Shown here: one piece after another, positions 69 to 60,728 of the stretch
Layout: each line of letters opens with the position of its first letter
Numbering within the stretch: position 1 is the stretch's first letter
Assembly (NCBI GenBank): GCA_018648265.1
Contig: JABGRN010000015.1
Coordinates: 1 to 64,000 of the forward strand
Length of the DNA stretch: 64,000 nt
From: Prolixibacteraceae bacterium
GTDB taxonomy: Bacteria > Bacteroidota > Bacteroidia > Bacteroidales > Prolixibacteraceae
Direction: 5' to 3'
The notes under the pieces: generated by a model
Database searches by the model: none
What the model saw: the letters and a program-made list of their open reading frames with translations, nothing else
Told to the model about the DNA's origin: nothing
Program-made: the position numbers and the translations under genes

Positions 69-281
69 CTAAATAAAAAATCAGTCAATGGCAGAGTTTA
101 CCTAATTTTGATGTGAATAATTAGTAGATGAAATAATTTTGAAATGAAGAAATTTTTCCAATCGTAGGGATGATCTGAAATAAAATCTGTTTTGGTAGAT
201 TCAGAATCCGTCAGCAGACGGGCAGAATGAAGAATAATAAATTTTTAAATTGTCCGGGTTCTAAACTGTAAATTGTTCGTT

Positions 282-2120
282 ATGAAAAACTTAACACAAT
301 ACCTTTTTATATTAATAAGTTTTCTTTTGTTTTCGTCTCTCAGTTCAAATGCCCAAAAGCTTGAGAATCCAATTTCAGAAGCCTATTTAAAAAAGCATTT
401 GGTGAAAAAATCGCCAAAACTTATTCTAACTCCTCAAATTGAAAAGGAGTTGAAAAGCAAACTAAAATCTGATCCCTTGGTTCAGCGCTATTATCAATAT
501 TTAAAAGACGAATCCATCCATATTCTTGAAAAACCTCTATTAAAAAGGGAACTAGAAGGATTTCGTTTGTTAGCGGTTTCACGAGAAATGGTTGAACGAA
601 TGGGAGCTTTATGTATGGTTTACAGGATTGAAAAAGATCCTTTAATTCTCAAACGTATTGATGAAGAAATACAAACTGTATGTAATTTTATCGACTGGAA
701 TAATCAGCATTATCTTGATGTAGCTGAAATGTCTTTTGCAGTGGCACTTGGCATCGATTGGGTAGGAAAGTGGTTACCAAAAGAAACGGTACAATTGGCA
801 AAAAATTCTTTGATTGAAAAAGGAATCAAACCAAGTTTTGACGAAAGCAACAGGCGCATGTTTTGGATAAGTGGTACAAATAACTGGAATGCAGTTTGTC
901 ATGGTGGAATGATTGCCGCAGCTTTGGTTACGGCTGACATAAATCCTGAATTATCGGCTCAAACCATTTCACGTGCCCTTGAGAAATTGCCGGGTTCTTT
1001 AAGCGAATATGCACCCGATGGAATTTATCCCGAAGGGCCAACTTATTGGGGATATGGAACGTCGTACACGGTAGTTGCCGCTAATTCTTTGAAAACTGCT
1101 TTAGGCAGCGATTTTGGAATTTCAAAAAGTCCGGGTTTTATGGAAAGCCCAAGTTTTGTTTTGCAAGCAACTGCACCATCGGGCGAAGCCTTTAATTTTG
1201 CCGATTGTGGCTCAACAAACAGAGGTCGGGTTGCGGTACTAATGACCTGGTTTGCTTCTAAAACAGGAGATGATCTTTATTTAGATAGTGAATTCTTCGC
1301 AAAGCCTGAAAATATGGGTAGAATGGCAGCACCCGGTTTGATTTGGCTTTCGCAATTTGAAAAGAAAAAATCCAGTTCGTTAACAACTCAATGGCATGGA
1401 AACGGGAAAAATCCGGTTGCTATTTTTCGTGATAAGGAAAACGATTTTTACCTCGGGGCAAAAGGAGGAAAAGCCCATTTAAGCCATGGAAATATGGATG
1501 CCGGAACATTTGTTTTTGAATTAAATGGTGTCCGCTGGGTAATCGATCCCGGCAACCAAAGTTATTATCCGTTGAATAAAATTGGATTTAATCTTTCTGG
1601 TCATTGTCAGGATTGTCCCCGCTGGACTTTGTTAACAAAAAGGAACGATGCACACAGCACAATTACAGTAAATGACGAACGGTTTAATGTTGAAGGCCAC
1701 GCAAGAATTATCGAGTTCAAAGAGGGTGATCAACCAGAAGTTTCTATTGATATGACCGATCTTTATTTTGGAAATCTTGCTTCGTTGAAAAGACGTTTTG
1801 TAAAAGAGAATAGCAATTCGATTTTAATTGAAGATCAAATTGAAATTAACGATTCGACAAAAGATATCACTTGGGGATTAATGACTGTTGCCGATGTCAT
1901 TCCAGTAAAAAATGGTGCTATTCTGAAACAAGATGGAAAAGAGTTGAAACTAACCATTTTGTCGCCGGAGAAAATTCAGGTTTCAGTTATTTCTCTGGAT
2001 CCACCACCTCTTGAAATCGACAAGACGATTGAAAATTTAAAACGTCTAGAAATTCGGGTTCCTGCATGGATATTTGAAAACAATAAAGGTGTTATAAAAG
2101 TCCGGTTGACCGGAGAATAG
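282..2120 (+). CDS. Secreted heparinase II/III-family polysaccharide lyase
   Basis: A probable polysaccharide lyase that cleaves a uronic-acid polymer by beta-elimination outside the cytoplasm. The ATG at 282 opens a clean signal peptide (hydrophobic run ending SSNAQ, about residue 25); the in-frame TTG at 273 adds three residues and is unlikely. An alpha-helical toroid fills roughly residues 30-370, followed by a beta-rich heparinase II/III C-terminal domain (about 375-610). Candidate catalytic residues follow the Asn-Tyr-His pattern of this fold: NNWNAVCHGG near 200-209, PEGPTYWGYG near 251-260, and the His in SHGNMDAG near 401. The protein at 4558 is a clear paralogue with the same motifs. 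It is the first of seven co-directional degradation genes. The fold is secure; the CAZy family (PL12, PL15, PL17, PL21 or newer) and substrate are not decided by what I can see. Confidence 0.85.
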   Translation: MKNLTQYLFILISFLLFSSLSSNAQKLENPISEAYLKKHLVKKSPKLILTPQIEKELKSKLKSDPLVQRYYQYLKDESIHILEKPLLKRELEGFRLLAVSREMVERMGALCMVYRIEKDPLILKRIDEEIQTVCNFIDWNNQHYLDVAEMSFAVALGIDWVGKWLPKETVQLAKNSLIEKGIKPSFDESNRRMFWISGTNNWNAVCHGGMIAAALVTADINPELSAQTISRALEKLPGSLSEYAPDGIYPEGPTYWGYGTSYTVVAANSLKTALGSDFGISKSPGFMESPSFVLQATAPSGEAFNFADCGSTNRGRVAVLMTWFASKTGDDLYLDSEFFAKPENMGRMAAPGLIWLSQFEKKKSSSLTTQWHGNGKNPVAIFRDKENDFYLGAKGGKAHLSHGNMDAGTFVFELNGVRWVIDPGNQSYYPLNKIGFNLSGHCQDCPRWTLLTKRNDAHSTITVNDERFNVEGHARIIEFKEGDQPEVSIDMTDLYFGNLASLKRRFVKENSNSILIEDQIEINDSTKDITWGLMTVADVIPVKNGAILKQDGKELKLTILSPEKIQVSVISLDPPPLEIDKTIENLKRLEIRVPAWIFENNKGVIKVRLTGE

Positions 2121-2136
2121 TTAGGTCGGATCTGTC

Positions 2137-2156
2137 ATTCCCACGAAAGTGGGAAT
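2137..2156. repeat. Intergenic palindrome between two lyase genes
   Basis: Perfect 8-bp arms ATTCCCAC / GTGGGAAT separated by GAAA, 17 bases after the stop of the preceding lyase gene. No T-run follows, so it is not a typical intrinsic terminator. It resembles dispersed palindromes with a GAAA loop and may stabilise or process the polycistronic message. Confidence 0.5.
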
Positions 2157-2189
2157 CTCGTAAATTTTAGAGATATTAAAATTAGAAAT

Positions 2190-4406
2190 ATGAAAAATCG
2201 TACGTATTTATTACTCGGAATTTTTTTTATGGTTTTTATTGGCAACAGCAATGCACAGTCCGACATCGAAAAAATCAAAAAACGAGTTGTTGCAGAATTA
2301 ATGAAACTAGAAGTTGATGATTCCAGAGTTGCAAAACTTTTGGAAACAATAAAAGAAGATGGAACCTGGCCGGGGATCAACTACGAAGATGTTTCGCGAA
2401 CCGGTTTTGAACATAGAAATCATTACGCAAACATGATTGTTTTGGCACGTGCTTACAAAACAAAATCTTCAAAATATTTTAAAAAGAAAAAGGCGAAAGA
2501 AACAATTGAGCTGGCACTCAAAAATTGGGTTGATAACGATTATTTCTGTGATAACTGGTGGCACAACCAAATTGGTACTACAAATGGTTTGGTAAGTTTA
2601 ATGTTGATTATCGGCGATGAATTAAATAAGGATTTAGTTGAAAAGGCCCAGCCTATTATTGGCCGTGCGAATGTTGATGCACCCGGTGCCCGTCCCGGTG
2701 GCGACCGAATAAAAATATCGGGAATTCAGGCAAAAAATATGCTCTTTTTAGGCGATGATGAAACTTTTAATAAAGTTGTAAGAATCATTGAAGGTGAGAT
2801 TAAATTTTCGGAATGGGTTGGTGCAAAATATGGTTATGGATTCAGGCACATTCCCACGGGCTTCTCAAATCGCGAAATGGGTGGACGTGGAATTCAATAC
2901 GATAATAGTTTTCACCACCGTGTTGATGGTGTAAATAACACGCTTTCGTACGGTTTGGGATACGCAGACGCTTTTGTAGAATGGGCAGTTTATACCTCGG
3001 GTACACAATTTTCTTTTTCGGAAGAAAAACTAGAACCATTAATTGATTACTTTTTAGATGGGATTTGTAAAACAGCTGTTTTTGGAAAATATCCCGATGC
3101 CGGAGCTAAAAACAGAAGTATTAGTCGTGAAGGTACTTTGCATGTTTACAGTGCAAAAACAGCAGAAAAATTGCTGCTTACTTCAGATTATCGAAAAGAT
3201 GAAATACAGGAAATTGTAGATATTCGAAATAAAGGTATTTTGCCAACAACTTCGCATGCAACCTATTACTGGCATTCCGAGCATTTTACTTTTCAGCGGC
3301 CCGATTTTTTTACATCGGTAAGATTGTATTCAACCCGAACTCACAACATGGAACAGCCGTACAACAGCGAAGGATTATTCAATCATCATCGTGGAGATGG
3401 TACAAATCATATTTCACGGACTGGAGATGAATACTACGATATTGCCCCGGTTTTCGATTACCAGAAAATACCGGGAACAACTGTGTTGCAAAAACCGGAA
3501 TTGCCTGCTCCAAACGAAATTCAAAAATTGGGCATAACCGATTTTGTTGGAGCGGCAACTGATGGGAAATATGGAACTGCAGCCTTCGATTTTAGAAGTC
3601 CGCATGATCCCTTAATTACCAGAAAAGCCTGGTTCTTTTTTGATGAGGAATATGTTTGTCTCGGAGCTGGAATTTCGTGTAAAACCAATCTTCCCGTTGT
3701 TACTACATTAAATCAGTGTCTTCTTCGTGATGATGTTACCATTTCCAGCGAAAGCAAAAAATGGGTTATTTCAAAAGGAGAAAAGGAATTTGAAAAAGTT
3801 GATTGGGTTTTTCAGGATGGAATTGGATATGTTTTTCCAAAACCAACTTCAGTTAATATTAAAAATAGTGCTTCAAAAGGTTCATGGTGGTTGATAAACA
3901 AACAAACCGATTCCCCAAAAGATGAAGTAGAATTGGATGTGTTTAAACTTTGGCTCAATCACGGCGAAAGTCCAAGCGAAGAAATGTATGAATACATTGT
4001 TGTGCCGGCTACTTCAATCGAAAAACTGGAACAAAATACATCCAAAAGTAATGTAGAAGTTTTATTAAATACTCCTGAAATTCAGGCTGTAAAACATTCG
4101 GGATTAAAAATGTGCCAGGCAGTATTTTACAAAGCTGGTGAAGTTCAAATAATCGATAATTTAAAACTAAGTTGCCAAACTCCCGGAATTGTGATATTAC
4201 AAGCACAAGCTTCGGATGGAATGAAAATTACGGTTTCAGATCCTAACCGTGAGTTAGGAAAAATGTTACTTTCCCTTTCAATAAAAATTGAAAAGCAAGG
4301 AGATAATTTCACGGCTGTTTGGAATGAAAAAGAAAAAGTAAGCGAAATAACAATTGATTTACCAAAAGGCAATTATGCCGGTAAAAGTGTAACTATTGAA
4401 TTATAA
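2190..4406 (+). CDS. PL8-family polysaccharide lyase (chondroitin/hyaluronate/xanthan lyase type)
   Basis: A secreted lyase of the PL8 fold: an alpha/alpha toroid followed by large beta-sheet domains. The signal peptide ends IGNSNAQ near residue 23. PL8 landmarks appear in order: NWWHNQIGTTNG (about 122-133, catalytic Asn candidate N126), DNSFHHRVDG then SYGLGY (238-258, catalytic His near 243 and Tyr near 254), KNRSISREG (about 307-315, Arg), and YNSEGLFNHHRGDG (391-404, Glu394). The beta-sandwich region covers about 450-738. At 738 residues it lacks the extra N-terminal modules of the largest family members. PL8 enzymes cleave chondroitin, hyaluronan or xanthan; with GH88 and heparinase-fold lyases nearby a glycosaminoglycan-like substrate is plausible, but that is inference. 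Confidence 0.9.
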   Translation: MKNRTYLLLGIFFMVFIGNSNAQSDIEKIKKRVVAELMKLEVDDSRVAKLLETIKEDGTWPGINYEDVSRTGFEHRNHYANMIVLARAYKTKSSKYFKKKKAKETIELALKNWVDNDYFCDNWWHNQIGTTNGLVSLMLIIGDELNKDLVEKAQPIIGRANVDAPGARPGGDRIKISGIQAKNMLFLGDDETFNKVVRIIEGEIKFSEWVGAKYGYGFRHIPTGFSNREMGGRGIQYDNSFHHRVDGVNNTLSYGLGYADAFVEWAVYTSGTQFSFSEEKLEPLIDYFLDGICKTAVFGKYPDAGAKNRSISREGTLHVYSAKTAEKLLLTSDYRKDEIQEIVDIRNKGILPTTSHATYYWHSEHFTFQRPDFFTSVRLYSTRTHNMEQPYNSEGLFNHHRGDGTNHISRTGDEYYDIAPVFDYQKIPGTTVLQKPELPAPNEIQKLGITDFVGAATDGKYGTAAFDFRSPHDPLITRKAWFFFDEEYVCLGAGISCKTNLPVVTTLNQCLLRDDVTISSESKKWVISKGEKEFEKVDWVFQDGIGYVFPKPTSVNIKNSASKGSWWLINKQTDSPKDEVELDVFKLWLNHGESPSEEMYEYIVVPATSIEKLEQNTSKSNVEVLLNTPEIQAVKHSGLKMCQAVFYKAGEVQIIDNLKLSCQTPGIVILQAQASDGMKITVSDPNRELGKMLLSLSIKIEKQGDNFTAVWNEKEKVSEITIDLPKGNYAGKSVTIEL

Positions 4407-4412
4407 ATTTAA

Positions 4413-4523
4413 ACTCCAAAGGAGTATAATATTTATAGCCCTCGACTTTAGTCGAGGGAATGCTATTCTGAAAAAGAAAGGCACATCCAGCTTGTTTCAA
4501 TGAAAAGAAAAGTCACATGTGCC
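4413..4523 (+). repeat. Three-hairpin intergenic element, copy A
   Basis: Three stems occur in order: ACTCC/GGAGT (4413-4417 with 4421-4425), CCCTCGAC/GTCGAGGG (4439-4446 with 4451-4458), and a wider outer pair GGCACAT/ATGTGCC (4480-4486 with 4517-4523). The element at 8610-8723 has the same order and spacing but different stem sequences that still pair. That covariation suggests selection on structure. A GTG in the last stem (4519) is in frame with the next gene but belongs to this element. It may be a REP/REPIN-type repeat mobilised by an IS200-like protein, or a structured RNA. Confidence 0.6.
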
Positions 4524-4557
4524 GCAAAAGAAAAATTTGATTAAGAAAAATATTACA

Positions 4558-6426
4558 ATGCCATTACAATCAAAACTAAAATTCATAATATTCCTGTTTT
4601 TAGCTCTCTCCTGTAACAAGGAGAAAACATCCACGGAACCAGATTTGTCCGAAGACGGCCATCCCAGAATTTTACTTCTAAAAGGAGAAGAACAACAAAT
4701 TCACGATTTGATTGCTTCGGATGAAACCTGGGCAAAAATGCACTTCGCTATTTTGGAAAAGAGTAACGACCTACTTGGAGATCCTGTTTTGGAAAGAGTA
4801 ATGACTGGCAGAAGATTACTTTCAGTATCGCGGGAAGCTTTAAAACGAATATTTTTCCTTTCGTATTCATACCGAATGACAGGTGATGAAAAATTCCTAA
4901 AAAGAGCAGACGAAGAAATATTGGCTGTTTCACGTTTTTCCGATTGGAATCCATCTCATTTTCTCGATGTTGCTGAAATGACCATGGCAGTTGCAATTGG
5001 TTACGACTGGCTTTATGAGGACTTGTCAGAACGGGCCCGACTGGAAGCGCAAAGTGCAATTTTAATGCTTGGATTAAATGAATCTTTAAATGGAACTCAC
5101 TGGTGGTTAACTTCCGAAAATAATTGGAATCAGGTTTGCAATGCCGGAATGGTTTATGGCGCCTTGGCAATTCAGGAAGATTTTCCGGATGTCGCTGAAG
5201 AAATAGTAGATCGGTCATTTGAATCAATACCAATTGCAATGGAAGCTTACCAGCCCGACGGAGTTTATCCTGAGGGATATGGATATTGGGGATATGGTTC
5301 GGGGTTTAATATTATGTTTTTAAGTGCAGTTGAAAAAGCTTTGGGCAACGATCGTGGTCTAAGTTCAACTCCTGGATTTATTGAAACCGGCCATTTCCTA
5401 AAACATATGATTACACCAACAGGCGGTAATTTTACCTGGGCCGATTGTGGAACCGGAACCAACTTAAAACCTGCCATGTTTTGGTTTGCCGAGAAAACAA
5501 ACGATCCTTCTGTTTTATGGTCTGAAAAAAGATTTTTAGAGGTTTCTGATTTTGATGGATTTAAAGGAATTCGAGATTTGCCGGCGATCATGATTTGGGG
5601 TAAAAATATTCCGCTTAATAATATCACCGAACCAGCTGATAAATTCTGGATGGGACAGGGGCCAAATCCAATTGCAATGATGCGTTCGAGTTGGACAGAT
5701 TCAAAAGCTGTTTATCTCGGATTTAAAGCCGGTTCACCATCTGTTAATCATGGACACATGGATGTGGGTTCTTTTATGATGGAAGCAGATGGACGACGTT
5801 GGGCAACCGATTTGGGCAGTCAGAATTATGAGTCGCTGGAATCGCTTGGAATGAGCATTTTTGGGAAAGATCAGGATGCTGAACGTTGGACTATATTTAG
5901 AATGAATACTTATTCGCATAATGTTTTAATAGTTGATAATGAACAGCAAAGAGTAAACGGTTATGCGAAAATCGATAAGTCTTCCGATGAAGAAAATTTT
6001 ATGTTTTCGGTTTCCGATATTTCAAGTATTTACAATGGACAGCTAAAAAATGCTACACGCGGAGTTGCCCTGAAAGATTTGAAATACACGGTTATTCGAG
6101 ACGAATTCGAAACACTGGATAAAACAACAACTGTACGTTGGAATATGGTAACTTATTCAAACGTAATTTTGGGAGACAAGGAAGCAACATTAAACGATGG
6201 CAGTAAAATACTAAGGTTAAAAGTAAAGGGGCCCGGTAATATTGAAATGAAAACATGGAGCACTGCTCCAACCAATAATTACGATGCTGAAAACCCGGGA
6301 ACAATTATGGTTGGTTTCGAATGCGAAATTCCGGCAAATACCAAAGAATCGTTTGAAGTTCTTCTTGTTCCTTCGAATGCAAATGATACAGCAAATTTTC
6401 TTAACTTGAAACTTGATGAGTGGTAA
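4558..6426 (+). CDS. Heparinase II/III-family lyase lipoprotein
   Basis: A second copy of the heparinase II/III-fold lyase, predicted to be a lipoprotein. Starting at the ATG at 4558 gives a short basic N-terminus, a hydrophobic core and the lipobox LALSC near residue 19; the GTG at 4519 lies inside the upstream hairpin element and is rejected. Motifs match the lyase at 282: ENNWNQVCNAG, PEGYGYWGYG and NHGHMDVGSF, giving the Asn-Tyr-His set expected for catalysis, then a beta-rich C-terminal domain with RWATDLG. The lipid anchor suggests surface or periplasmic attachment, while the paralogue at 282 has an ordinary signal peptide, so the two may act on long and short substrates respectively. 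Substrate unknown. Confidence 0.85.
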   Translation: MPLQSKLKFIIFLFLALSCNKEKTSTEPDLSEDGHPRILLLKGEEQQIHDLIASDETWAKMHFAILEKSNDLLGDPVLERVMTGRRLLSVSREALKRIFFLSYSYRMTGDEKFLKRADEEILAVSRFSDWNPSHFLDVAEMTMAVAIGYDWLYEDLSERARLEAQSAILMLGLNESLNGTHWWLTSENNWNQVCNAGMVYGALAIQEDFPDVAEEIVDRSFESIPIAMEAYQPDGVYPEGYGYWGYGSGFNIMFLSAVEKALGNDRGLSSTPGFIETGHFLKHMITPTGGNFTWADCGTGTNLKPAMFWFAEKTNDPSVLWSEKRFLEVSDFDGFKGIRDLPAIMIWGKNIPLNNITEPADKFWMGQGPNPIAMMRSSWTDSKAVYLGFKAGSPSVNHGHMDVGSFMMEADGRRWATDLGSQNYESLESLGMSIFGKDQDAERWTIFRMNTYSHNVLIVDNEQQRVNGYAKIDKSSDEENFMFSVSDISSIYNGQLKNATRGVALKDLKYTVIRDEFETLDKTTTVRWNMVTYSNVILGDKEATLNDGSKILRLKVKGPGNIEMKTWSTAPTNNYDAENPGTIMVGFECEIPANTKESFEVLLVPSNANDTANFLNLKLDEW

Positions 6427-6431
6427 AAATT

Positions 6432-6473
6432 TGCAGGAGTTAAATATAAATAACCCTCGTTTTTAATCGGGGG
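6432..6473 (+). repeat. Three-hairpin intergenic element, partial copy B
   Basis: Only the middle hairpin is recognisable: CCCTCG (6454-6459) pairs with CGGGGG (6468-6473) with one G-T pair, preceded by AGGAGT and an A/T-rich spacer as in copy A. The outer GGCACAT-type pair is missing. I read it as a decayed copy of the element at 4413 and 8610. Confidence 0.4.
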
Positions 6474-6526
6474 AGTCGCTTATTAATGGAGTAAAAAGAC
6501 TAATAATTTTCATAAACCGAAATAAC

Positions 6527-8611
6527 ATGAAACAACTAATTCAACTCTTAACAATTATCCTGATTATCATATCGTTTATAGGTGTCTCAAACGCTCAGTT
6601 AACAAAATCAGATATCGACAAATCCATCGATATCTCTTCGTTAAAACATCCCTATTTATATTTTTCCGAAGGGGAGAAACCTGTTTTATTGGAACGCATT
6701 AAAAACGATCAGGAATCCAGCGATATTTTTCGAAAATTGGAAGCCGAAGCTCAAATGTGGTTACACATGCCCGTCGATAAAAATATACCGATTCAAGGAA
6801 AAAATACTCGAGCCGGTTGGACAGAATACGATAATGATAAGAAGTATGCAACTTATTACAACACTAATCGGAATAATGCTTTTTACCTCGCGTTTTTGTA
6901 CCAAATGACGGGCGAACAGAAATATGCTGACAAAGCATTTGAGTTTGCTGATGCCTTTTGCGACCTCGCAACCTGGACTCAGCGTGCCCACGAATTTCCG
7001 ATTATTTACTCCCGAATTATGCCGTGGAATGTCGATGATGATCAGGTGAATTTTAATTTCGATCATTACAATGGCGATGCCGGGCGGATGATGGCGGCTG
7101 TTTATGATTGGTTATACCCGGCACTTAATTCAGCTCAACGCGATCGTATTCGGGGTGCTTTATTAGAAAAAGTAGTAACCCGCGTTCGGGGCGATTACGA
7201 ATTTCATTGGTGGGCAACCGCGTACCGATGCAATTGGTGTGGCGTTTGTAATTCGGGTGTCGGATTAACAGGACTAGTGTTACTCACCGAGCATCCTCAA
7301 CTAACCGATATTGTTGCAGAATCGTACAATCGTATTAACAGCATGTTTAACGAATTGGGAGAAGATGGCGGTTGGCAGGAAGGTGGCGGCTATTGGAATT
7401 ATGGAGTTCATACTTCTACATTTTTTGCCGATGCCTTAAAGCGGATCACGAATTCAAAATACAATCTTTTTGAAAATGAGCGACTAAAAAATAACCCTGC
7501 TACTTTTCCTCTTCATATTTCGCTTCCCGGAAAACGTTCCCTTAATTTTGAAGATTCTGGCGGGAGTTCCTTAATTGGAAGCACTCATCTTCTAAATAAA
7601 TTAGCAACTGAAACCAAAAGCAAAGAAGCTGCCTGGTACCGGACAAATTTGCTCGGAGCAGGCAACGATATTTTTGATATTATCTGGCCAAAACCTGAAT
7701 TTAATTCGGTGCCTCCACAAAATCCTTCCAAATATTTTCGAACCATTGACTGGTGGATTTTACGCAGCGATTTTAAAGATTATAATAAAGTAATAGTTGC
7801 CGGAAAAGCAGGAATGAACGATGATCCTCACCACGGACACCTCGACATTGGTCATTTTGTGGTTTACTGGCAAGGCGAATATTTTATTCAGGATATTGGC
7901 AGAAAAGGATCGTACGATGAAAAGTATTTTGATGATATGCGTTTTGACTATCCACAAGCGTCAAGCATTGGGCACAATGTTTTGTTCGTGAATGGAGAAA
8001 AACAAATTTCTGCAAAGCTAAGAAAACAAGAATGGATTCCTGGAGTTGGTGGGAAAGTTGAAGAATTCCGAACCCTGGAAAATCTTGATTATGTAAGAAT
8101 GAACCCTACAAAAGCGTATCCGAATAATGAATTAAAAGAATGGAAACGGCATGTTATTTTAGATAAACCGGAAATAACAGTTGTTTTGGATGAAGTGGAT
8201 GCAGAACCTGATTCAGAAATTGAAATCCGTTTTCACCCTGGGGTAGATTTTGAGGTTAACGATGGTTTTGTTTTTATGGAAGGAGAAAAAGGGAAAATGG
8301 CTGTAATTCCGATTGCAATTGAAAACTTCGAAATAGAAAAAGGTAAACATGCCTCACAATTTATAAATGCAACCAACGATTTTTTCTGGGTAGATTATTT
8401 CGACATTGAAATTAATTCCAGCAAAGAAAAAACTGATGTTGCAACCATAATTCTTCCTGTTAAAAACATGGACGAAGCGCAAAAAATAGTTTCCACAAAA
8501 GAATTGAGAATAGATAACTCAGGAAATCTTACGATTTCATTTTCAGCAAACGGAGAAAAACATTCTTACGAGTTTGAAAACAGAAAAGGTGGTTTAGTCC
8601 TGAAAAATTAA
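6527..8611 (+). CDS. Secreted heparinase II/III-family lyase (divergent, 694 aa)
   Basis: A third heparinase-fold lyase, longer and more divergent than those at 282 and 4558. The signal peptide ends GVSNAQ (residue 24). The helical domain spans about 40-390 and the C-terminal heparinase II/III beta domain about 400-690. Catalytic-type positions are RCNWCGVCNSG (Asn near 236), EGGGYWNYG (Tyr near 289) and HHGHLDIGHF (His near 436). The 53-residue interval between the Asn and Tyr motifs matches the other lyases here. It lies between two hairpin elements in the same run of + strand genes. Expected role: exo- or endo-cleavage of a uronic-acid polymer. I cannot assign a CAZy family with confidence. 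Confidence 0.83.
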   Translation: MKQLIQLLTIILIIISFIGVSNAQLTKSDIDKSIDISSLKHPYLYFSEGEKPVLLERIKNDQESSDIFRKLEAEAQMWLHMPVDKNIPIQGKNTRAGWTEYDNDKKYATYYNTNRNNAFYLAFLYQMTGEQKYADKAFEFADAFCDLATWTQRAHEFPIIYSRIMPWNVDDDQVNFNFDHYNGDAGRMMAAVYDWLYPALNSAQRDRIRGALLEKVVTRVRGDYEFHWWATAYRCNWCGVCNSGVGLTGLVLLTEHPQLTDIVAESYNRINSMFNELGEDGGWQEGGGYWNYGVHTSTFFADALKRITNSKYNLFENERLKNNPATFPLHISLPGKRSLNFEDSGGSSLIGSTHLLNKLATETKSKEAAWYRTNLLGAGNDIFDIIWPKPEFNSVPPQNPSKYFRTIDWWILRSDFKDYNKVIVAGKAGMNDDPHHGHLDIGHFVVYWQGEYFIQDIGRKGSYDEKYFDDMRFDYPQASSIGHNVLFVNGEKQISAKLRKQEWIPGVGGKVEEFRTLENLDYVRMNPTKAYPNNELKEWKRHVILDKPEITVVLDEVDAEPDSEIEIRFHPGVDFEVNDGFVFMEGEKGKMAVIPIAIENFEIEKGKHASQFINATNDFFWVDYFDIEINSSKEKTDVATIILPVKNMDEAQKIVSTKELRIDNSGNLTISFSANGEKHSYEFENRKGGLVLKN

Positions 8612-8723
8612 TCCGAAAGGATTGAATAATTGTAACCCCGGGTTTCAACCCGGGGATAATTAATGAATAATGAAAGAAGGTGCATCAAAGGAATTAACTT
8701 GAAAATCTGACCTGTCATGCACC
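8610..8723 (+). repeat. Three-hairpin intergenic element, copy C
   Basis: Same architecture as the copy at 4413: AATCC/GGATT closed by GAAA (8610-8614 with 8619-8623), CCCCGGGTT/AACCCGGGG (8636-8644 with 8647-8655), and a distant pair GGTGCAT/ATGCACC (8679-8685 with 8717-8723). Compared with copy A every stem has changed on both sides. The first stem overlaps the stop codon of the preceding lyase. A possible upstream ATG (8718) for the next gene is part of the last stem. Confidence 0.6.
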
Positions 8724-8764
8724 GCACACTTGAAATTTTAATTGAAATGCAAAAAATACCAAAT

Positions 8765-10156
8765 ATGAAAACTCATTTACTATTTATCTCTATTTTAATC
8801 CTCACCATTCTTTCATGCACTCAACAGCAAAAAGAACCCATCACAATCGACGAAACTTCCAACACCGAATCAATCACCCAAACCATAAAAATAGACAGCG
8901 TTTGGGCAGGGCATCCTGTTGGATTCTGTTTATTTACGCATGAAAACCGGCAATACATTGCTTATTACAATGCTAATCGGAATATGGTTGTTGGACAGCG
9001 AAATCTGGATGAAGAGAATTTTCAGCTTCATATTATGCCACCAACTTCAAGAGAAACGGCTGGTGGTACAAGTACTGTTTTGGGTTGGGACAGTCATAAT
9101 TCGGTAACAATAGGAATCGATAAAGAAGGTTATATCCATCTTTCCGGAAATGTTCATGTGCACCCGCTGACCTATTTCCGAAGCACCAAACCCAACGACA
9201 TTTCAACTTTAGAACAAGTTTTTGAAATGGTGGGGACTGAAGAAAAAAGGACAACCTACCCGCATTTTATGTTGACAAAAGAAGGCGAAATGTTGTACCA
9301 TTATCGAGATGGTGGCAGCGGAAACGGAAATGAAATTTATAACATATATTCCTGTGAAACTAAAAAATGGTTGCGGATGTTGGATGTTCCTTTAACCGAC
9401 GGGCAAGGTTTAATGAACGCTTATCAAACACAGCCAACTCTTTTGAAAGATGGTTGGTACCACATGTATTGGGTATGGCGCGATACACCCGATTGTTCAA
9501 CCAACCACGATTTATCGTACATGAAAAGTCCTGACCTGAAAAACTGGTTTAATGTTTTTGGAGAACAAATAAAAATGCCCGCAACTTTAGATGAAAAAAC
9601 ACTAATTGTTGATCCAATTCCTCCAAAAGGTGGCATAATTAACCTGGAGGCAAAAATGGTATTGGATGTAAAAAATAATCCGGTTTTTGCTTACCACAAA
9701 TACGATTCTGCAGGTAACCTTCAGTTTTTTACCGCTCAAATTCAAAATGAAAAGTGGCTTTACAAGCAAATAACAAATTGGGATTATCGTTGGGAATTCT
9801 CAGGAAACGGAAGTATAAATAGCGAAGTCAGAATTAAAGGATTCCAAAAAAGAACGGATGGGAATTACGAAGTGGATTACTGGCATATAAAATACGGCAA
9901 CGGTACAATTTTGTTAAACGAAAAATTTGAGAGTTTTGGTAAAGTTTTAAAACCGGAACCTTTTGGTACAGATTTGAAAATTGAAGGAACGTTCCCTGGC
10001 CTGGAAGTTCGAAGTTCCGGAGATATTGGAAATGCTGAGGATGAAAATTCACGTTACATTTTAAAATGGGAAACCATTAATCGTAATCGTGACCGACCAC
10101 GCGAAAAGCCGTGGCCAGAATCCAGTCAGATGTATTTATATCGACTAAAAAAGTAA
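8765..10156 (+). CDS. BNR_4-domain beta-propeller lyase lipoprotein (PL24/PL25-like)
   Basis: A predicted lipoprotein (lipobox TILSC, about residue 18) with a BNR_4-type seven-bladed beta-propeller. The start at 8765 gives a good signal peptide; the upstream in-frame ATG lies in the hairpin element. The motifs GWDSHNSVTIGID and GNVHVHPLTYFRS put two His 20 residues apart, followed by LYHYRDGGSGNGN about 65 residues after the first. From memory, PL25 ulvan lyase uses His123, His143, Tyr188 and Arg204, an almost identical layout. The fold call is firm; ulvan-lyase activity is an inference, because BNR_4 proteins also occur in other acidic-polysaccharide loci. Four bases separate it from the GH88 gene, so the two are probably translated from one message. 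Confidence 0.75.
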   Translation: MKTHLLFISILILTILSCTQQQKEPITIDETSNTESITQTIKIDSVWAGHPVGFCLFTHENRQYIAYYNANRNMVVGQRNLDEENFQLHIMPPTSRETAGGTSTVLGWDSHNSVTIGIDKEGYIHLSGNVHVHPLTYFRSTKPNDISTLEQVFEMVGTEEKRTTYPHFMLTKEGEMLYHYRDGGSGNGNEIYNIYSCETKKWLRMLDVPLTDGQGLMNAYQTQPTLLKDGWYHMYWVWRDTPDCSTNHDLSYMKSPDLKNWFNVFGEQIKMPATLDEKTLIVDPIPPKGGIINLEAKMVLDVKNNPVFAYHKYDSAGNLQFFTAQIQNEKWLYKQITNWDYRWEFSGNGSINSEVRIKGFQKRTDGNYEVDYWHIKYGNGTILLNEKFESFGKVLKPEPFGTDLKIEGTFPGLEVRSSGDIGNAEDENSRYILKWETINRNRDRPREKPWPESSQMYLYRLKK

Positions 10157-60380: not shown

Positions 60381-60728
60381 GGATTTAGAGGGTGAGAGTA
60401 AGTATGATTTAGAATATTGGTGTTAGCCTGAACTATTTATGAATTTATCTATTCCGAAATCAAACTGCTTTGAATAAAGAGAATGCTCGATTCTCGCTTC
60501 TCAAAATAGCTAAGGCTATTTCTGCGAGGCTCAACTCTGTGCTTCCCTTTATTCTGTGCATTTTGAATTCTCATAACGAAATACTCATGAATAATTCAGG
60601 TAAAAAAAGAATAGGAGTCTGACCCCTCCTAACCTCCCCAAGGGGGGAGGAATAAGAAACTAATTGTAAAATGAAAGGACTCTTCAGTCCCCCCTTTGGG
60701 AGATTTAGAGGGTCAGAGTAAGTATGAT
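60381..60728 (+). repeat. 28-bp direct repeats around the palindromic element
   Basis: 60381-60408 and 60701-60728 share GATTTAGAGGGT and AGAGTAAGTATGAT with one G/C difference between those blocks and one at the first base, 320 bp apart. They may be remains of a tandem duplication, or two insertions of the same short dispersed repeat. Confidence 0.6.
60427..60600. mobile_element. 174-bp palindromic MITE-like element
   Basis: The segment folds end to end. The termini CCTGAACTATTTATGA and the reverse complement of TCATGAATAATTCAGG match at 14 of 16 positions. Matching blocks continue inward (TGAATAAAGAGAA with AGAATAAAGGGAA) to a centre AATAGC-TAAG-GCTATT at 60505-60520. No ORF is inside. This long imperfect hairpin fits a miniature inverted-repeat element or a large REP-type structure. 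No target-site duplication is obvious. Confidence 0.6.

Follow-up and report, generated by a model that had tools for sequence, protein, structure and literature searches.

What kind of element occupies two gaps of one gene cluster in which three stems recur in the same layout, with stem sequences that differ and pairing that is kept? The question arose from the window, a stretch of 64,000 nt of DNA from a Prolixibacteraceae bacterium, for which the original prediction named either a REP/REPIN repeat moved by an IS200-like RAYT protein or a structured RNA that punctuates a polycistronic message. The three-stem layout is indeed present in both gaps, and the two copies proved to be members of one repeat family with a unit of about 137 nt. 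Full copy 1 (4408..4542, + strand) lies between a polysaccharide lyase 8 gene ending at 4406 and a heparinase II/III-like gene with a likely start at 4558, and full copy 2 (8605..8742, + strand) lies between a heparinase II/III-like gene ending at 8611 and a BNR_4 gene with a likely start at 8765, both starts being our own reading. Read directly on the + strand, hairpin 1 of copy 1 (4413..4425) pairs ACTCC (4413-4417) with GGAGT (4421-4425), hairpin 2 (4439..4458) pairs CCCTCGAC (4439-4446) with GTCGAGGG (4451-4458), and hairpin 3 (4480..4523) pairs GGCACAT (4480-4486) with ATGTGCC (4517-4523). Read in the same way on the + strand, copy 2 has AATCC (8610-8614) and GGATT (8619-8623) in hairpin 1 (8610..8623), CCCCGGGT (8636-8643) and ACCCGGGG (8648-8655) in hairpin 2 (8636..8655), and GGTGCAT (8679-8685) and ATGCACC (8717-8723) in hairpin 3 (8679..8723). 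The second stem of copy 2 had been read as 9 bp, which would leave a loop of 2 nt; the form that folds has 8 bp and a 4-nt loop. A partial copy suspected at 6454-6473 lies within a degenerate copy (6423..6513, + strand) that has kept hairpin 2 and weak traces of hairpin 1 and has lost hairpin 3; a fuller copy (1597-1736) is found at locus L009, in the gap before the homologue of the gene behind this remnant.

According to Pfam, the genes of the window cluster are ordered Hepar_II_III_C, PL8 lyase, Hepar_II_III_C, Hepar_II_III_C, BNR_4, GH88-like and Hepar_II_III, and all three places are gaps of this one co-directional polysaccharide-degrading cluster. Folding against 200 dinucleotide shuffles each gave z scores of -4.7 and -5.4 for the full copies, with 0/200 shuffles as good, and of -0.9 for the remnant, with 30/200 as good. 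As predicted, there are no further copies in the window: the two covariance models described below find these three places alone (R1 at E<=1, R2 at E<=0.001). Two other palindromic hairpins turned up in the scan of the window, at 60624 and at 1-67 (CCCCTCC...GGGG and CCCTGAAACAAGTTCAGGG).

Model R1 was built from seven copies, taken from the window and from two MAGs with the same gene cluster (L009, a MAG labelled Draconibacterium, and L029), and model R2 from a 53-copy alignment (A5); each model was built from its own best matches. The element defined by A5 has three hairpins with helices of 5, 8 and 7 pairs over about 137 nt. Paired cells made up 90.6% in the 53 copies compared with 76.7% in shuffles, and cells in which both partners had changed and the pair was kept numbered 142, with 36.6 expected in shuffles; neither the observed paired fraction nor the double-change count was reached in any of 500 shuffles. 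Such two-sided, pairing-keeping changes occur at 18 of the 20 pairs and in all three helices, and sliding the partners by 1-3 columns destroyed the signal (32-46% paired). The claim that compensatory change implies selection on pairing, for which two copies alone are insufficient, thus holds on 53 copies, and the element has the covarying helices of a structured RNA.

Searching the own genome and its relatives with the covariance models revealed copies in the former and across the genus. Because the best 13-150 of 114-4601 first-look candidates per listed genome were scored, all genome counts are lower bounds. R2 gave at least 406 matches at E<=1e-4, in at least 34 of the 37 genus genomes, with 0-32 per genome and a median of 8 among the matches listed; two of these genomes stand under two handles each (G001 = G019 and G002 = G008, contigs and coordinates being alike). 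The own genome holds at least seven R2 matches (E<=1e-4) and at least nine R1 matches (E<=0.1), including the three window places, and at the latter threshold the genomes of L009 and L029 hold at least 24 and at least 21. An earlier R1 survey had found matches in at least 33/37 genus genomes and in at least 2/24 others of the order, and of 246 other genomes of the class at least 24 have weaker, mostly partial matches, the best of 64 bits versus 110 in the own genome. Among 22 loci with a homologous lyase gene, R1 matches were found in L009 and L029 only, none was present at E<=0.1 among the scored candidates of five other whole genomes with such a gene, and at L010 there is hardly any gap behind the 694-aa gene. 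Sequence-based searching finds little: blastn of the gap sequence against the own genome returned only itself, and a 27-base pattern with three mismatches matched the two window copies only. A loose scan for any two stems was discarded, being swamped by chance stems. The family is detectable only by a structure-aware model. In the literature searched, a body in which most subscription journals fall outside the coverage, no description of this three-hairpin element was found.

Position and orientation were assessed in a context set of 179 matches (177 distinct, at 112 loci), which comprises the best listed matches and 20 chosen regions (clusters, Y1 neighbours and own-genome copies) rather than a random draw from the at least 406, and which includes weak matches and Y1-flank units. 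ORFs were called mechanically (>=120 aa), and some start distances are therefore off. The element is palindromic, repeated in the genome and extragenic, with only two of the 177 distinct copies lying for more than 70 nt inside an ORF of at least 200 aa, shorter overlapping ORFs being disregarded. An ORF was found within 700 nt on both sides of 135 of the 177 copies, of which 113 lie in sense orientation between tandem genes, 9 antisense, 7 between convergent and 6 between divergent genes. After removal of 14 copies flagged by a terminal-inverted-repeat (TIR) pattern (n = 126, among which two further copies of this kind in G013, L166 and L167, remained since the pattern had missed them), the counts were 110 for sense copies between tandem genes, 8 for antisense copies, 6 for divergent and 2 for convergent gaps; with one copy per locus (n = 90) they were 79, 4, 5 and 2, respectively. 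Tandem position as such is not remarkable, as 28 of 30 further gaps that measure 80 bp or more at these loci also separate tandem genes; what is remarkable is the sense orientation within tandem gaps.

A second line of evidence connects the element with transposase genes. Outside the genus, partial matches (one locus in each of 19 of the 24 genomes) have in common hairpin 1, a linker of the form AATATnAATA... and hairpin 2. Beyond hairpin 2, inspection by eye revealed a third hairpin resembling hairpin 1 in at least nine of the 19 (L285, L286, L290, L292-L295, L297 and L299) and another hairpin in L282, L283, L287 and L288; the element's own hairpin 3 was seen in none of the 19 loci. In three of the 19, from three different families (L292, L294 and L297), the units form an inverted pair directly around a Y1_Tnp gene (Pfam PF01797) whose product is 60-62% identical to the protein of L065, a locus of the genus. 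At L065 itself and at L131, also in the genus, similar inverted units surround Y1_Tnp genes. For all ten flanks of the five genes, folding gave z scores between -4.9 and -7.8. In the own genome, the flanks of the Y1 gene at L003 (z -5.6 and -3.1) are rich in hairpins of other sequence; one flank has four stems and the other three, and R2 scores 27 bits on one side. One flank of the Y1 gene at L002 folds with z -5.0. Of the 198 Y1_Tnp matches in the genus, 36 loci were scanned; 15 of their 21 R2 matches (E<=0.05), at 12 of the 36 loci, lie within 300 nt of the gene, a zone of about 20% of the non-gene sequence (binomial p ~5e-7, overstated since several matches fall in one locus). The match of the Y1-flank units to the element is weak but repeated (~20-47 bits). 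Of the two alternatives in the original prediction, which are not exclusive and which both gain support, the REP/RAYT one is supported in part: hairpins 1 and 2 relate to units around Y1_Tnp genes, but hairpin 3 was not found there, no whole element lies immediately beside the Y1 gene in any of the 36 genus loci, and the nearest one seen (L131:3010-3147, in G035) is in the next gap, about 0.3 kb off. These comparisons suggest that the first half of the element (hairpin 1, an A/T linker ending in ATAA or ATAG, and hairpin 2) shares ancestry with, or descends from, the Y1-flank units, and as far as we searched the third hairpin is specific to the window's genus.

The closest kind of element known is the REP of RAYT (TnpA-REP) systems. 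Both are short, palindromic, extragenic repeats with related hairpins beside a Y1 transposase gene; the element differs by its fixed order of three hairpins over ~137 nt, and of 53 copies only two have a GT[AG]G 5' to the foot of hairpin 1, the other 51 having none nearby. According to the available part of PMC6006769, GT[AG]G is also absent from the repeats of subclass 2.6 and class 3, and 'atypical secondary structures' adjoin the Bacteroidetes genes of subclass 2.6 (RAYT group 5). The inverted doublets typical of BIMEs and REPINs are rare: neighbours within 400 nt have opposite orientation in only 4 of 112 loci (L134, L148, L198 and L199) and are direct repeats in 16. The copies at L134 (G038) and at L198 and L199 (G018) form arrays of alternating orientation, unlike the common pattern in which copies stand alone or as direct repeats in sense orientation. 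The flanked transposases do not carry the motif of subclass 2.6; their Y motif (e.g., YVKNQRQHH in L065) is the Y---Q--HH of TnpA-Y1 subclass 1.2, with which they also have the Y1_Tnp domain in common, and judged by this motif alone they would be of the subclass 1.2 type. As far as the available text of PMC6006769 goes, subclass 1.2 genes have no REP on record and generally lack typical IS200 end structures, whereas the genes described here (L292, L294, L297, L065, L131 and, in the own genome, L003) have inverted hairpin units on either side; the literature searched, with most subscription journals outside its coverage, held no report of such flanks. Three things are new compared with REP/RAYT systems: how the hairpins are laid out, the preference for the sense orientation, and the link with genes that resemble subclass 1.2.

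Taken together, with a probability a little below 0.6, we regard the three-hairpin element as a RAYT-derived, REP-like non-autonomous element that is either tolerated or maintained in the form of a folded RNA between cistrons. The hairpin units would spread as single-stranded DNA hairpins through a Y1 transposase and, in this genus, would persist mainly in sense orientation between co-directional genes. The transcript may then fold into the three hairpins, which would passively punctuate the polycistronic mRNA without ending transcription; punctuation in this sense would mean stability, processing or ribosome spacing. We know of no sequence relation between E. coli REPs and the element, which is a three-hairpin unit with a strong sense bias; both are hairpins of intercistronic gaps. 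According to PMC12306157, translation can be reduced by E. coli REPs that lie no farther than 15 nt from a stop codon, and 28 of the 110 sense copies start no more than 15 nt from the upstream stop or overlap it. This analogy makes an effect of the element on mRNA plausible, without being evidence for the element itself. A more far-reaching interpretation, which we put forward tentatively as the less probable one, is that RAYT flanking DNA has been domesticated as a genus-wide intercistronic RNA module and that, in addition, genes of the subclass 1.2 type have cognate hairpin arrays. In that case, hairpins 1 and 2 would come from the ends of Y1 transposase units, the third hairpin would have been added, and the whole would be selected in sense orientation for the stability, processing or ribosome traffic of the messages of many unrelated operons.

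The helices themselves bear on whether the element is folded as RNA. In the 177 copies, G-T pairs exceed A-C pairs in helix 1 (65 vs 27) and helix 2 (39 vs 17) and nearly equal them in helix 3 (22 vs 21), the significance of these differences being overstated as the alignments were fitted to the model and the copies are related. Helices 1 and 2 point to the sense strand as the one that folds, and helix 3 has no strand preference. The excess does not decide between RNA and DNA, because single-stranded DNA of one strand gives the same bias. The predicted structured RNA within a polycistronic message has the sense orientation (110 vs 8) and the first two helices on its side, and helix 3 against it.

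Some copies lie in a different setting. A TIR pattern occurs within 400 nt of 14 of the 177 copies, at loci of G013 and G012, and is absent at the window copies. At these loci (L161-L172 in G013, L177-L179 in G012) the element lies inside a dispersed repeat 382-385 bp long. The 17-bp terminal inverted repeats of this longer unit (consensus CTACGGTGTACACACAA) are perfect at both ends in two copies and have up to three mismatches per end elsewhere; 13 G013 copies were aligned, and both ends were located for 11 copies. The resemblance to MITEs with terminal inverted repeats is confined to these loci, the ends of the element itself having no inverted repeats of this kind, and the element looks like a passenger within the TIR-bounded repeat. 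Other hairpin repeats appear by eye to have been inserted inside copies of the element (L149:5014-5173, L140:1889-2030, L141:1843-2003 and L009:7847-8153), the apparent spots being hairpin 3, the linker, the loop of hairpin 2 and the stretch between hairpins 2 and 3.

These data bear on the strongest rival, a selfish or neutral DNA repeat whose hairpins are kept for recognition as single-stranded DNA by a Y1 transposase and have no RNA role, the sense bias arising from an exposed single-stranded target or from loss of antisense copies. The indifference of helix 3 to the strand agrees with it, the G-T excess of helices 1 and 2 is no obstacle as single-stranded DNA tolerates G-T too, and it would readily accommodate the apparent insertions inside copies and the mixed orientation of the 11 copies within the TIR-bounded repeat that have both flanks (3 sense, 3 antisense and 5 convergent). 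Nevertheless, a ratio of 110 to 8 in tandem gaps demands a strong bias of insertion or loss, and we consider it unlikely that this reading is the full account, although it is the one among the rivals that the data accommodate best.

Further evidence comes from copies that recur before the same genes. Upstream of a ferredoxin-like gene, the element is present on the same strand in one of the two preceding gaps in 21 of 31 genomes (20 of 30 loci, three of them weak, plus G008), and 16 of 32 genomes have it in the gap that precedes isocitrate dehydrogenase (14 of 30 loci, plus G024 and G019; a 33rd genome, with a gene fragment only, was left out). Pairing is kept in both same-gene sets, with 16 double-change cells vs 5.5 and 82 vs 21.2, each alignment including a few matches from outside the relevant gap; such maintenance before the same genes in many species speaks against a purely selfish repeat. 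Before isocitrate dehydrogenase, G033 has a leader without the element and G027 a similar leader with it, a comparison that suggests where the element begins and ends: in G027 its span opens with hairpin 1 and closes with GTAGATT, for which G011 has GTTGATT. Other species have unrelated hairpin repeats in this gap, and the own genome has neither those nor the element. In L254, L257, L260, L256 and L269, where this gap is without the element, it holds an unrelated long palindromic repeat (CTCGCAAAGCCGCGAAG ... GCGCCTTTGCGAG-like). In the ferredoxin operon, irregular runs of CTTCCGACTTC-like words occupy the gap that precedes the small gene in L244 (the window's genome), L246, L248, L249 and L238. 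Y1_Tnp genes and hairpin units also occur in or beside the Fe-S operon where the element recurs, at L131 and L148 (G035 and G019).

Vertical inheritance as the sole cause of this recurrence gains no support from a tree made with a quick method for the 23 genomes that yielded both proteins (30 isocitrate dehydrogenases and 26 of 30 ferredoxin-like proteins were extracted). With the two gaps of the ferredoxin operon pooled, presence and absence required 11 changes for four states, compared with a shuffled mean of 11.4, and 105 of 200 shuffles were as low. Occurrence is patchy over the tree and differs even between near relatives such as G009 and G017, so the element turns over by insertion, loss or recombination. 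Such turnover agrees with the selfish reading as well, and the patchiness is more in line with it than with an RNA that the cell needs. At the nearer gap of the ferredoxin operon, inspection by eye showed that the upstream gene has a different C-terminus when the element is present, so this gap is no clean insertion.

The same recurrence is also an argument for a cis-regulatory RNA that controls the next gene as a leader, an intercistronic switch or a protein-binding site. Sense orientation, the conservation of unpaired stretches in the loop of hairpin 3 and 3' of it in A5, and the finding that for 70 of the 110 sense copies no more than 60 nt separate the end of the element from the called start of the next ORF would all be expected of such an RNA. 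On the other hand, the downstream genes are little alike. Among the ten of 90 downstream ORFs that were searched in Pfam are Iso_dh, KDPG aldolase, Glycos_transf_3, Fer4, short-chain dehydrogenase, NADH dehydrogenase domains, GATase, GFO_IDH_MocA, peptidase M20 and PQQ_2, and in the window lyases follow. A riboswitch or gene-specific regulator was rejected as first choice on this ground. Scattered presence among close relatives is a further objection, as is the want of an Rfam family: Rfam 15 gave no match in the window at gathering thresholds and three matches far below threshold (E 1.1-3.8) at a relaxed setting. We therefore judge control of the next gene to be improbable. Ordinary intrinsic terminators or chance palindromes are a very improbable explanation. 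A terminator scan is at chance level in the region (five sites vs 4.2 in shuffles), although hairpin 1 of copy 1 is among its hits on either strand; neither hairpin 2 nor hairpin 3 of the window copies, both rich in G+C, has behind it the T-tract of an intrinsic terminator; for 110 of the 126 copies the next gene runs in the same direction, often close by; and chance is excluded by the covariation over 53 copies.

In summary, a transposase group described as being without REP-like repeats is now linked to hairpin arrays. The hundreds of mostly sense intercistronic hairpins form a natural collection, present or absent before the same genes in sister species, which allows a comparative test of the old question of whether REP-like elements act on mRNA. 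The finding is also a warning that hairpins within the operons of polysaccharide-lyase clusters need not regulate those genes.
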